Below are positions 4,672 to 61,885 of a stretch of 64,000 bases of DNA, in pieces. Both the position numbers and the translations under genes were made by a program. The first letter of the stretch is position 1. Each line of letters opens with the position of its first letter. The notes beneath the pieces are model-generated. The model worked only from the letters and a program-made list of their open reading frames with translations. It was not told where the DNA came from and made no database searches. Source of the stretch: Nitrospiraceae bacterium (GTDB lineage: Bacteria > Nitrospirota > Nitrospiria > Nitrospirales > Nitrospiraceae); the NCBI GenBank assembly GCA_009692155.1, contig SHZW01000004.1, positions 1 through 64,000 on the forward strand, written 5' to 3'.

Positions 4672-4750
4672 GGATATCTCGGCTGATGAAGGGCGAACTG
4701 CTCCGGCGAAAGTATGAAGCAGGGTGACGAGGCCCTCGCGTCCGCGCCTC

Positions 4751-4884
4751 CCGAAGCGACCCTTCCGGGCTTTAGCGTGGGGAAGCCTTCTGGAATTCCC
4801 GCGGCCGCGGTCGTTGACCGCGGTGCCTTGGTCAGTTCCAGCTTTCCTCCCCGCTAAAGCCTCGGTGGGTACCCCGCTTCTCCG
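4751..4884. repeat. Composite palindrome downstream of ychF
   Basis: gaagcg...gctttagcgtgggga pairs with tcctccccgctaaagc...cgcttc; inner ccgcggtcgttgaccgcgg palindrome. Confidence 0.6.
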
Positions 4885-4923
4885 GCAATGTCCGCTCAAC
4901 CTCGCCACCCCACTTTTAGAGAG

Positions 4924-12537: not shown

Positions 12538-13794
12538 ATGACGGAGCACGGCAGACGTCGGGTGGTCATTACGGGGCTGGGGCTGATCACGCCTCTCGGG
12601 ATCGGCGTGAGCCCCACCTGGAAGGCGCTCTGCGAAGGACAGTCCGGCATCGGCCGCATCACGCGTTTCGATCCCACCCGGTATGCCTCCCAAATCGCGG
12701 GAGAGGTGAAGGGCTTCGATCCCGCCGCCTTCATCGAGAAAAAAGAAATCAAGAAGATGGATACCTTCATTCACTACGCCGTCGGCGCGAGCCTGATGGC
12801 GGTGGATGATGCGGGTCTGAAAGTTGCCCCGGAGGAGGCCACGCGGGTCGGCGTCTATATCGGCTCCGGCATCGGCGGGCTGGGCTCGATCGAGCATTAC
12901 GGGAAGGTGCTGCAGGAAAAAGGCCCTGACCGTGTCTCGCCGTTCTTTATCCCCATGACCATCATCAACCTGGCGTCCGGCCAGGTGGCGATCCGGCTCG
13001 GTGCCAAGGGGCCGAACTCCTGCGCCGTGACAGCCTGCGCCACCGGCAACCACTGCATCGGGGACGCGTTCCGCCTGATCCAGCTGGACGAGGCGGATGT
13101 CATGGTCGCGGGTGGAGCCGAAGCGGCGATCACCCCCTTGGGCGTGGCCGGATTTGCGGCATCACGCGCCCTCTCCACGCGGAATGATGAGCCGACCAAA
13201 GCCAGCCGGCCGTTCGACAAGGATCGGGACGGGTTCGTACTCGGCGAAGGGGCGGGCATCGTCGTGCTGGAAGAACTGGAGCGGGCCAAGCGGCGCGGCA
13301 CCAGGATCTATGCCGAGCTGGTCGGCTACGGCATGAACAGCGACGCCTATCACATCACGGCGCCGTCGGAAAACGGCGAGGGCGCGGTCCGCTGCATGGA
13401 GCTGGCGATCAAGGACGCGAAGATTTCCAAGGACGAGGTCGGCTACATCAATGCCCACGGGACGTCCACGATGGCCGATGCGATCGAGACCAGCGCGGTC
13501 AAGCAGGTGTTCGGCGAGCGAGCCCGACGCATTCCGGTCAGTTCGACCAAGTCCATGACCGGCCATCTGCTCGGGGCCGCCGGTGGGATTGAAGCGGTGT
13601 TCAGCGTACTGGCGATCTACCACAAGCTGTTGCCGCCGACGATCAATCTCGATCATCCTGATCCGGCGTGCGACCTTGATTACATTCCGTGGAAGGCGCG
13701 TCCGGCATCGGTCACGGTGGCGCTCTCCAATTCATTCGGGTTCGGCGGCGTCAACGCCTGCCTGTTGTTCAAGCGAATAGCAAACAGCGAATAG
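12538..13794 (+). CDS. fabF: 3-oxoacyl-ACP synthase II
   Basis: RRVVITGLGLITPLGIG; TACATGNHCIGDAFR; SNSFGFGGVNACLLF. Confidence 0.97.
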   Translation: MTEHGRRRVVITGLGLITPLGIGVSPTWKALCEGQSGIGRITRFDPTRYASQIAGEVKGFDPAAFIEKKEIKKMDTFIHYAVGASLMAVDDAGLKVAPEEATRVGVYIGSGIGGLGSIEHYGKVLQEKGPDRVSPFFIPMTIINLASGQVAIRLGAKGPNSCAVTACATGNHCIGDAFRLIQLDEADVMVAGGAEAAITPLGVAGFAASRALSTRNDEPTKASRPFDKDRDGFVLGEGAGIVVLEELERAKRRGTRIYAELVGYGMNSDAYHITAPSENGEGAVRCMELAIKDAKISKDEVGYINAHGTSTMADAIETSAVKQVFGERARRIPVSSTKSMTGHLLGAAGGIEAVFSVLAIYHKLLPPTINLDHPDPACDLDYIPWKARPASVTVALSNSFGFGGVNACLLFKRIANSE

Positions 13795-31772: not shown

Positions 31773-31798
31773 GCGCGCAGAGCGTTGAAAAACAAAGA

Positions 31799-31829
31799 GC
31801 CTGTCCGGAATTCCGGACAGGCTTTTTTG
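31799..31829 (+). terminator. Rho-independent terminator of the oxidoreductase operon
   Basis: Perfect palindrome agcctgtccggaattccggacaggct followed by T-tract. Confidence 0.9.
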
Positions 31830-31836
31830 TTTCAGG

Positions 31837-31907
31837 GTTTATCTGGTTTGTCGGGTTTTTCTGGTTACCCAAACAAACCAAGTGAACCAGGCAAACTAGA
31901 CAAACCA
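31837..31907. repeat. Nonamer-phased inverted array
   Basis: gtttatctg/gtttgtcgg/gtttttctg then aacaaacca/agtgaacca/ggcaaacta/gacaaacca. Confidence 0.85.
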
Positions 31908-31908
31908 G

Positions 31909-44460: not shown

Positions 44461-45174
44461 ATGGCTGAGATCGACAAAGAAAACGTCATCGATCAGGAGG
44501 AAGTCCTCCGGCCGAAGATGGTCACGGTGGAGATCGCCGGCAAGAAGTACGACGTGCCGGAGGGCGTCACCGTTATCAAAGCCCTGTGGTACGCGGGGCA
44601 GGAAGTCATCCGCGGCATCGGCTGCCTGGGAGGATTCTGCGGAGCCTGCGCGACCTACTACCGCACAAAAGATGATCCCAAGGTCCGCACCTGCCTGGCC
44701 TGCCAGACGGCGGTACAGGACGGCATGACGTTTACCATGGTGCCGCCCTTCCCGGCGCGCAAGGCCATCTACAACATGGCCGAATTAAAGGATCCCAAGC
44801 AGGATCTTTTCACGCTCTATCCGGAAGCGCCGCTCTGCCGCAATTGCAACGCCTGCACGGAAGCCTGCCCGCAGAAGATCGACGTGCGCGAGGGCGTCTG
44901 GAAGGCCGTCTTCGGCGACTTCAAGAGCGTGTCCGAGATGTTCATGGACTGCGTCATGTGCGGGCTGTGCGTGCCGGTCTGTATCGCGGACATCGCGCCC
45001 AACCTCGTCGCGCTCTACGCAAGCCGCGCCCAGGGCGCGCACTTCACGGAGAAGCCGGAACGGCTGGAGCATCGCATCAAGGAAATCGCCGACGGCAAGT
45101 ACAAGGACGAGTGGAGCCGCGTCATGAAGATGAGCGAGCCGGAACTGGCGAAAGTCTGCGCTGAGCTGAAATGA
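44461..45174 (+). CDS. frdB: Fumarate reductase/succinate dehydrogenase iron-sulfur subunit
   Basis: CLGGFCGACATYYRTKDDPKVRTCLAC; CRNCNACTEACPQKI; CVMCGLCVPVC. Confidence 0.87.
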   Translation: MAEIDKENVIDQEEVLRPKMVTVEIAGKKYDVPEGVTVIKALWYAGQEVIRGIGCLGGFCGACATYYRTKDDPKVRTCLACQTAVQDGMTFTMVPPFPARKAIYNMAELKDPKQDLFTLYPEAPLCRNCNACTEACPQKIDVREGVWKAVFGDFKSVSEMFMDCVMCGLCVPVCIADIAPNLVALYASRAQGAHFTEKPERLEHRIKEIADGKYKDEWSRVMKMSEPELAKVCAELK

Positions 45175-45178
45175 TGCA

Positions 45179-45282
45179 GTCTGAAAGTCAAAAAGTCATC
45201 AAGTCGTCAAGTCGGGACCTCAATCATTGTTCGTTTCTCTGACTGCAGACTTTATGACTTTAAGACTTTACGACTTTTCGAC
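45179..45282. repeat. Octamer-phased inverted-arm array (frdB-frdA junction)
   Basis: aagtcaaa/aagtcatc/aagtcgtc/aagtcggg versus gactttat/gactttaa/gactttac/gacttttc. Confidence 0.9.
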
Positions 45283-45288
45283 GTAATC

Positions 45289-46869
45289 ATGGACATCCAC
45301 GTCTTACAGCAAATCGTCCACAAGACCCGCGACGCCCGCCGCAAGCAGACGCTGCCGAAGTACGCGCCGGCCGAGCGCGACACGCTGATCAAGAAGTACC
45401 ATCCCGATTTTCGCGAGAGCGCCTACCGTCCCATCACGTTCGGTCCGAACGCCGGAGAAAAGACCGTCCGCGAACTGGCTGCCTTGCTCGAAGGCAACAG
45501 CGTTGTGCCGATGGACCTGGACCTGACTCCGCAGTACACCTGCGATGTGCTGGTGGTCGGCGGAGGCGGAGCCGGCTGCGCGGCCTCGCTGCACGCCCAT
45601 GCGCAGGGTGCCCAGGTGATCCTGGCCACCAAGCTGCGGCTCGGCGATTCCAACACCGTCATGGCGCAGGGCGGCATGCAGATCGCGGTCACGAACGAGG
45701 ATTCCCCGGTCACGCATTTCCTCGACACCCTCAAGGGCGGCCACATGAAGAACGACCACGACCTGCTCAAGGTCATGGTCGAGGAGGGCCCCTCCATTGC
45801 CAAGTGGCTGCTGAGTCTGGGCGTGCTGTTCGACCGGGATGCGGACGGCAACCTGCATGTGAAGAAGGGCGGCGGCAGCTCCAAGCCGCGGCTGCTCACG
45901 GCCTCGGACTATACCGGCCTTGAAATCATGCGGGTGTTGAAGGACGAGGTGCTGAACCAGAAGATTCAATTGCTCGAGTTTTCCGCCGCAGTCGAACTGC
46001 TGAGCGACGGCAAGGGCACGTGCACCGGTGCGGTGCTGCGCGACCTCGACAACAAGCGGTTCCTTGTCGTGGCTGCCAGGACGGTGATTCTGGCCACGGG
46101 CGGCATCGGCCGGCTCCACATCCAGGGATTTCCGACCAGCAACCATTTCGGCGCCACTGGCGACGGCCTGGCCATGTCCTACCGCATGGGCGCGAAACTC
46201 ATGCACATTGATACGTTTCAATACCATCCGTCAGGGGCAGTCTATCCCGAACAATTGATCGGCGCGCTGGTCACGGAAGGCATCCGCTCGGAGGGCGGCC
46301 ATCTCGTCAATGCCAAAGGCGAGCGGTTCGTGAATGAGCTGGACACGCGTGACGTCGTCTCGTCCTCGATCATCCGTGAGTGCGAAGAGGGCCGCGGCAT
46401 CCGAACCATGTCGGGCCGGATCGGCGTGTGGCTCGATACGCCGCTCCTGGAAGCGGAGCAGGGCGAGGGCACGGTGAACAAGCATTTCCCCGCGATGGTG
46501 CGCCAGTACGAGCGTTTCGGAATCGACATCGCCAAGGACCCGGTGTTGATTTATCCAACGCTGCACTACCAGAACGGCGGCGTGAAGATCGACGTCAACG
46601 GCGAGTCCGGCGTGAAAAATCTCTTCGTCGCCGGCGAAGCGTCGGGCGGCCTGCACGGGCGCAACCGGTTGATGGGTAACTCGCTGCTCGATTTGATGGT
46701 GTACGGCAAGCGATCGGGTCTCGCCGCGGCCGCGCGGGCCAAATCCGGTTCGCAAGGCAAACTGACATTGGAGCACGTGAAGAAGTTCAAGGACGAAGCC
46801 AAAAAGCACCACGTGTCCGCCGACGTCATCTCGCCGATGCTGTTTCCGGCATACGCAAAGAAAGAATAA
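45289..46869 (+). CDS. frdA: Fumarate reductase/succinate dehydrogenase flavoprotein subunit
   Basis: CDVLVVGGGGAGCAASLHAHAQGAQVILATK; DTFQYHPSGAVYPEQLIGALVTEGIRSEGGHLVNAKGERF; GEASGGLHGRNRLMGNSLLDLMVYGKRSG. Confidence 0.9.
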   Translation: MDIHVLQQIVHKTRDARRKQTLPKYAPAERDTLIKKYHPDFRESAYRPITFGPNAGEKTVRELAALLEGNSVVPMDLDLTPQYTCDVLVVGGGGAGCAASLHAHAQGAQVILATKLRLGDSNTVMAQGGMQIAVTNEDSPVTHFLDTLKGGHMKNDHDLLKVMVEEGPSIAKWLLSLGVLFDRDADGNLHVKKGGGSSKPRLLTASDYTGLEIMRVLKDEVLNQKIQLLEFSAAVELLSDGKGTCTGAVLRDLDNKRFLVVAARTVILATGGIGRLHIQGFPTSNHFGATGDGLAMSYRMGAKLMHIDTFQYHPSGAVYPEQLIGALVTEGIRSEGGHLVNAKGERFVNELDTRDVVSSSIIRECEEGRGIRTMSGRIGVWLDTPLLEAEQGEGTVNKHFPAMVRQYERFGIDIAKDPVLIYPTLHYQNGGVKIDVNGESGVKNLFVAGEASGGLHGRNRLMGNSLLDLMVYGKRSGLAAAARAKSGSQGKLTLEHVKKFKDEAKKHHVSADVISPMLFPAYAKKE

Positions 46870-61692: not shown

Positions 61693-61885
61693 GAGAAGGA
61701 GCCGGGCGTTATTCCCGGAAGCGACATTGCCGGAGGAGTGGGGGACCGACCGAGCCTTTGTCAGGAAGGAAAGCGGAAACTGACCGAGTCTGCGATGGAA
61801 TTTCCGAAGGCTTCCGCCTGACAAAGGCCGGAAGGGTCACTCCGGGAGGCGCAGGAGCGGAGGGAACAACGCCCGAATCCGGTTC

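Follow-up and report, generated by a model that had tools for sequence, protein, structure and literature searches.

An array of 8-nt words, set in two complementary arms between an frdB-like and an frdA-like gene, raises the question of what such a structure is and what maintains it: its fold, its words, or a process that writes and moves them. The array lies in a window of 64,000 nucleotides (the whole stretch of DNA analysed) from a Nitrospirota MAG (here G000; 1.93 Mb, 89.6% complete, sharing its genus with RIFCSPLOWO2_02_FULL_62_14). The surrounding cluster, which we take to be of reductive TCA type, comprises citryl-CoA lyase-type, aconitase, monomeric isocitrate dehydrogenase, frdB/frdA-like, sucC and sucD genes. 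The analysis draws on this one draft genome and on samples of its relatives.

At the frdB-frdA junction, four AAGTCNNN units are followed by a loop and four NNNGACTT units (Table 1), with AAGTC starting at 45185, 45193, 45201 and 45209 and GACTT at 45248, 45256, 45264 and 45272, both in exact 8-nt register. The lag-8 score of 21 lies above the maximum of 2000 shuffles (11) and the best ungapped stem score of 19 above that of 300 shuffles (13), so that the periodic, complementary-arm array of the preliminary description is real; it also fills the whole gap, as described there, from the stop codon (45172-45174) to the ATG at 45289. A single strand would fold, the computed RNA folding energy of the frd array being -32.8 kcal/mol (z = -3.4). 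Tested as an intrinsic terminator, the frd stem has no T-run after it, the right arm continuing into GACGTAATCATGG, and an Rfam search of the window returned no match, assigning the array to no known RNA family. The six nucleotides between array and frdA start codon (45283-45288) hold no recognisable Shine-Dalgarno sequence.

Table 1. Coordinates, within the 64,000-nt window, of the frdB-frdA array, its flanking genes and its sibling arrays.
Feature	Start	End	Strand
Gene for an frdB-like Fe-S subunit (255 aa), its TfrB/dhsB matches weak and under the cut-offs	44407	45174	+
frdB-frdA intergenic region	45175	45288	
Left arm: AAGTCAAA AAGTCATC AAGTCGTC AAGTCGGG, 8-nt register	45185	45216	+
Loop between the frd arms	45217	45247	
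Right arm: GACTTTAT GACTTTAA GACTTTAC GACTTTTC GAC	45248	45282	+
frdA-like flavoprotein gene, 526 aa	45289	46869	+
frdA-sucC sibling, 7-nt NNATRGC / GCYATNN, two arms	46870	46970	
Weaker sibling upstream of the aconitase gene, GAGGC-type 7-mer	39779	39868	
Sibling, 7-nt TGAACNN, two arms; ATAGC-word array there in G001	37857	37951	
Sibling, single-arm TCACGCN 7-mer; G001 counterpart a two-arm 9-mer array	35545	35606	
Sibling, GGCTATRG-type 7-mer, two arms	32158	32299	
Sibling, 9-nt GGTTTNTCT, two arms	31773	31908	
Sibling, 9-nt GGTTTNTCT, two arms	23516	23626	
Region with sibling array, 7-nt TGAACNN / GTTCATN; other word in G001	18554	18801	
Sibling, 7-nt NNATAGC	13771	13881	

Every sibling site that had been named alongside the frd array likewise proved to be a real array of the same design. 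Two of them have further features at their borders: a conventional G+C-rich terminator-like hairpin (GCCTGTCCGGAATTCCGGACAGGC plus a T-run) directly adjoins the 9-mer array at 31773-31908, which lies between convergent genes, and the NNATAGC array begins within the 3' end of its upstream gene (13771-13794), providing the TAG stop codon.

Beyond the window, we scanned 464 kb of G000 using a simple home-made codon-model gene finder and a lag-7/-8/-9 run score of at least 12. Arrays occupy 59 of 304 intergenic regions, about 20% of the gaps, where dinucleotide shuffles predict 0.45; other lags stay near background apart from the multiples 14, 16 and 18. Shuffled sequence, the control that the preliminary description had called for, thus yields a far lower lag signal here as it does at the frd junction. 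Most of the arrays are two-armed: 82% of the 56 examined reach a stem score of 10 or more, versus 21% of other regions, which bears out the idea of one family with one architecture. The suggestion of a slippable hairpin also holds insofar as complementarity persists when the register slips: shifted by one period, the stem still scores 11.2, whereas the remaining nearby diagonals give 2.5. Arrays are found mostly between co-directional genes, with some between convergent and divergent ones. Among relatives, array rates are 24% in G001, 22% in G013 and 19% in G012; none were seen in small samples of G003, G004, G015 and three order-level genomes, or in the E. coli K-12 control (0/48 regions). 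Chance or composition is ruled out by the genome-wide excess, the frd shuffles and the E. coli control, and an assembly artefact is unlikely, because independent assemblies carry arrays at orthologous positions, as does the closed N. moscoviensis genome. In G013 (L182, 11254-11534), a long array of GAATGGG/GAATGAG heptamers (lag score 44) has more in common with a classical heptamer SSR than with the two-armed design.

The words themselves turned out not to be locus-specific, contrary to what had been supposed; each is a dialect that recurs across many loci and is shared with other genera. There are 27 other matches in G000, and triples of AAGTC are present in 26 of the 396 Nitrospirota genomes, clustered in a few genera (79 in G000, 111 in G001). 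About ten dialects coexist within one genome, recurrent units including TGAACNN, NNATRGC, CGTGANN and GTGAANN at 7 nt, AAGTCNNN at 8 nt and GGTTTNTCT at 9 nt, joined in G001 by the 9-nt GTTNNGCCN and GCGNGANNN. Each dialect serves many loci with a fixed polarity of its arms (44:0 for AAGTC, and 29:0, 20:0 and 19:3 for others), and dialects appear and vanish between sister species: triples of GTTNNGCCN number 86 in G001 and 0 in G000, G002, G007, G012, G013, G020 and G021.

Comparison of the same junctions in relatives, also proposed in the preliminary description, reveals that sister genomes do carry arrays and that their words turn over. Among 107 orthologous regions of G000 and G001, arrays are present in both at 22, in G000 only at 10 and in G001 only at 8. 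Judged by eye, G000 arrays have kept their word in G001 in 14 cases, have another word in 12 and are lost or unclear in five; with word classes so called, 12/17 versus 8/75 gives p = 1.3e-6, and a strict automatic rule yields five swaps (p = 0.04). An array at one junction is thus often replaced by an array of another dialect, and remnants of old words stand beside new arrays, as with TGAACGCTG next to a GCGNGA array in G001 (C10:4094 in G000). All eight AAGTC arrays retained their word in G001, where the frd array has identical arms and both between-arm differences fall in the loop. Among 77 named contigs, no fewer than six words are used at the frdB-frdA junction; about 22-25 of these contigs have a two-arm array there, including that of the cultured relative N. 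moscoviensis.

Within arrays, conservation is sharply divided. In eight orthologous G000/G001 arrays of the AAGTC dialect alone (few orthologous arrays being available per dialect), the core differs at 7 of 530 positions (1.3%) and the first, second and third spacer bases at 35% (23/66), 18% and 9%, compared with 18% in outer intergenic DNA and 17% in gene flanks, where each array pair was scored in both directions and the counts are not fully independent (Fisher: core versus outer, p = 4e-27; first spacer base N versus outer, p = 0.002). The core is therefore almost unchanged, and the free spacer base outpaces neighbouring DNA. The earlier proposal that structure or period is maintained, and not sequence, is right in one respect, as the architecture often outlasts the word at a junction; within an array it is the core sequence that is kept (1.3% versus about 18%), and pairing has left no detectable trace.

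This last point bears on a transcribed RNA hairpin, an mRNA stabiliser or a processing or attenuation element like the cyanobacterial P6b stem discussed below, in which any word would serve and core-core pairing would be selected. The fold of the frd array, the strong stems of most arrays, the persistence of architecture through word change and the preponderance of co-directional gene pairs are all in keeping with such an element. However, the variable three nucleotides of facing units pair at chance only (10/40 versus 28% expected), which corrects the earlier description of the arms as reverse complementary; G.U mismatches in the sense orientation show no excess over A.C (76 versus 87, p = 0.43); and the unit numbers of the two arms are uncorrelated. 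As a functional RNA stem, then, the arms display neither covariation nor a G.U preference, and selection on base pairing is not visible. Arrays between convergent and divergent genes also fit a transcribed stem poorly, and pairing selection alone does not predict words that recur genome-wide. We consider this explanation unlikely.

A second possibility is a multi-site regulatory array, in which a DNA- or RNA-binding protein would occupy the periodic core at each locus and the units would be selected individually. The units do resemble independent draws from a weight matrix, with graded core conservation, free spacers and K (T/G) and M (A/C) positions; the AAGTC dialect follows the rule AAGTC-N-(T/G)-(A/C), and we speculate that its K/M pattern would suit a protein reading keto and amino groups in the major groove. 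Nevertheless, about ten dialects per genome would demand about ten proteins, words are swapped at housekeeping junctions, and a dialect private to one species (66 chains in the part of G001 that was sampled) would need selection locus by locus, making individual regulation of this kind quite unlikely. A role of the spacer as stop codon or coding element was rejected, as no consistent pattern emerged.

The spacers of neighbouring units bear on how the units multiply. Adjacent spacers are no more similar than spacers from different arrays, and identical neighbours number 18 of 577 versus 41 expected (p = 6e-5; AAGTC, GTTNNGCCN and GTTTNTCTN pooled, omitting ATNGCNN, whose pattern is too loose, with opposite sign and coding repeats possibly included, and GCGNGANNN, which has 0/139 identical neighbours with 1.7 expected). 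Since neighbouring spacers are not alike, the units have not recently been multiplied by slippage. Neutral microsatellite slippage on a palindromic seed would account for orthologs that differ by unit-sized lengths, and many bacteria have an excess of heptamers (PMC4692102, PMC4679880); yet it is strongly disfavoured by the 27-fold difference between core and spacer divergence and by identical neighbours being rarer than expected for random units, and it sits badly with fixed polarity and with words common to many loci, which together render it very improbable.

Alternatively, the arrays could be actively written, by degenerate-template synthesis or spacer-directed mutation, with a fixed core and random filler from birth. 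The GTTNNGCCN dialect seen only in G001 lends itself to such an account: across 66 chains and 310 units in the sampled part of that genome, GTT is about 100% and GCC 87-94% conserved (somewhat overstated, as units with more than one core mismatch were kept out of the chains), and spacers are already near-random (1.7-1.9 bits) when flanks have diverged by only about 17% since the split from G000; the lack of autocorrelation between neighbouring spacers points the same way. Against this, G001 may have acquired the dialect from elsewhere in an already diverse state, and some arrays have spacer strings in common. Three consecutive spacers are common to eight pairs of GTTNNGCCN arrays versus 0.33 expected, and therefore some copying between loci has occurred. 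No reverse transcriptase (PF00078, RVT_1) was found in G000, G001, G012 or G020, which further counts against writing in G000 and G001 and led us to reject a reverse-transcriptase or DGR origin; we regard the account as improbable. A broader formulation, in which a Nitrospirota process would write or rewrite arrays as independent degenerate 7-9-nt draws, launch a new word within a species and overwrite older arrays in place, all with neither a Y1 transposase nor a reverse transcriptase that could be recognised, strikes us as conceivable, if doubtful.

Among mobile elements, the arrays do resemble MITEs or foldback elements in having terminal inverted repeats made of short repeats with fixed polarity (the arm ratios given above). 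A Y1/RAYT transposase (PF01797) was not found by profile search in G000 (at 89.6% completeness), G001 or G020, and a RAYT-driven REP is accordingly rejected for G000 and G001. Classical transposition was rejected as well, target-site duplication not being detected in 91 elements (flank match 4.13 versus 4.03 +/- 0.10 for shuffled pairing), and viral carriage was set aside after three IMG/VR pattern matches proved AT-rich and unrelated by eye. No mobilising enzyme or core-binding protein was identified for the array family.

Other repeats also occur in these genomes. A dispersed, non-periodic repeat of about 170-190 bp (L130 6335-6530 on C10 of G000; window 61730-61865 and 4736-4910), with 71-85% identity in the window and more copies in G001, is possibly MITE-like. 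Two short, highly similar repeats of about 60 bp (L127 19080-19190 and L121 18890-19000) have several copies in G001, and the former resembles a long palindrome with ends CAAAGGACAACGGGCCTAG / CTAGGCCCGCCGTCCTTTG.

Our leading reading, which we hold tentatively, is that the arrays belong to a lineage-wide family of two-armed repeats spreading through intergenic DNA, in which a trans-acting factor recognises the core and arrays are copied and replaced. Each unit of 7, 8 or 9 nt consists of a fixed core and a nearly free spacer, arranged head to tail in two convergent arms, and a sequence-specific factor would recognise the periodic core at the DNA level, as its conservation suggests. Copies from other parts of the genome would give rise to new arrays and take the place of old ones, and the loss of perfect neighbours would leave diverse spacers behind. 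On this view the arrays may be short, semi-autonomous repeats with a role like that of REP/BIME, tolerated mainly downstream of stop codons, with any effect on operon expression probably secondary. Weighing against this reading, loops differ by eye and most arrays share no spacers, so that copying of whole arrays is at best partial.

A literature search found no papers on Nitrospira repeats, and precedents come from other bacteria. Beggiatoaceae TAACTGA repeats are likewise intergenic heptamer arrays with a patchy set of lineages (PMC4679880), but consist of one exact word that sits at start codons and, save for one inverted case, is repeated directly. REP/BIME/REPIN elements are similarly dispersed short intergenic palindromes of obscure benefit; unlike them, the arrays have an internal 7-9-nt periodicity, in genomes (G000, G001) lacking the Y1/RAYT transposase. 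Near-random spacers, depleted identical neighbours and units of 7, 8 and 9 nt also set the arrays apart from heptameric, STRR-type SSRs, in which almost perfect copies of a single heptamer follow one another head to tail.

The preliminary description knew of no named family with two arms, yet such precedents exist. The intergenic Xanthomonas heptamer GGGAATC occurs in X. campestris in about 70 pairs that are inverted and convergent, and the Nostoc heptamer GGGGA(T/C)T forms inverted pairs rarely (PMC4692102). These resemble the present arrays in being intergenic, with conserved location and with length and sequence that vary between relatives (PMC4692102), but each genome uses a single G-rich word, for which a quadruplex has been proposed, whereas many non-G-rich words replace one another here. 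Closest in design is the P6b stem-loop of the cyanobacterial trnL (UAA) intron, with Class I TDNGATT and Class II NNTGAGT heptamers, whose word classes in Nostoc replaced one another repeatedly, a whole class in place (PMC4476775, PMC3488679). In both systems, degenerate 7-nt units made of a fixed core and N positions build two arms, very different words give the same fold, and word classes are replaced in place; the 7-nt dialects match P6b in architecture, the frd array itself having 8-nt units. P6b, however, occupies one group I intron site with two word classes, while the arrays here, including that at frd, lie between protein genes and not in a tRNA-Leu group I intron, fill about 20% of gaps in about ten dialects with periods of 7, 8 and 9, and bear no sign of pairing selection.

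What is new relative to these precedents is the coexistence of many dialects, the periods of 7, 8 and 9, the genome-wide exchange of dialects in place and the contrast between core and spacer. Heptamer-type repeats in several bacterial phyla are usually attributed to polymerase slippage; here slippage is testable and fails, because core and spacer evolve very differently, adjacent units did not arise by copying one another, and one whole word gives way to another at a fixed position. Together these findings suggest that something recognises the array words, and a genome-wide system that includes the cultured N. moscoviensis offers a route to study the long-unexplained class replacement in the Nostoc trnL P6b.
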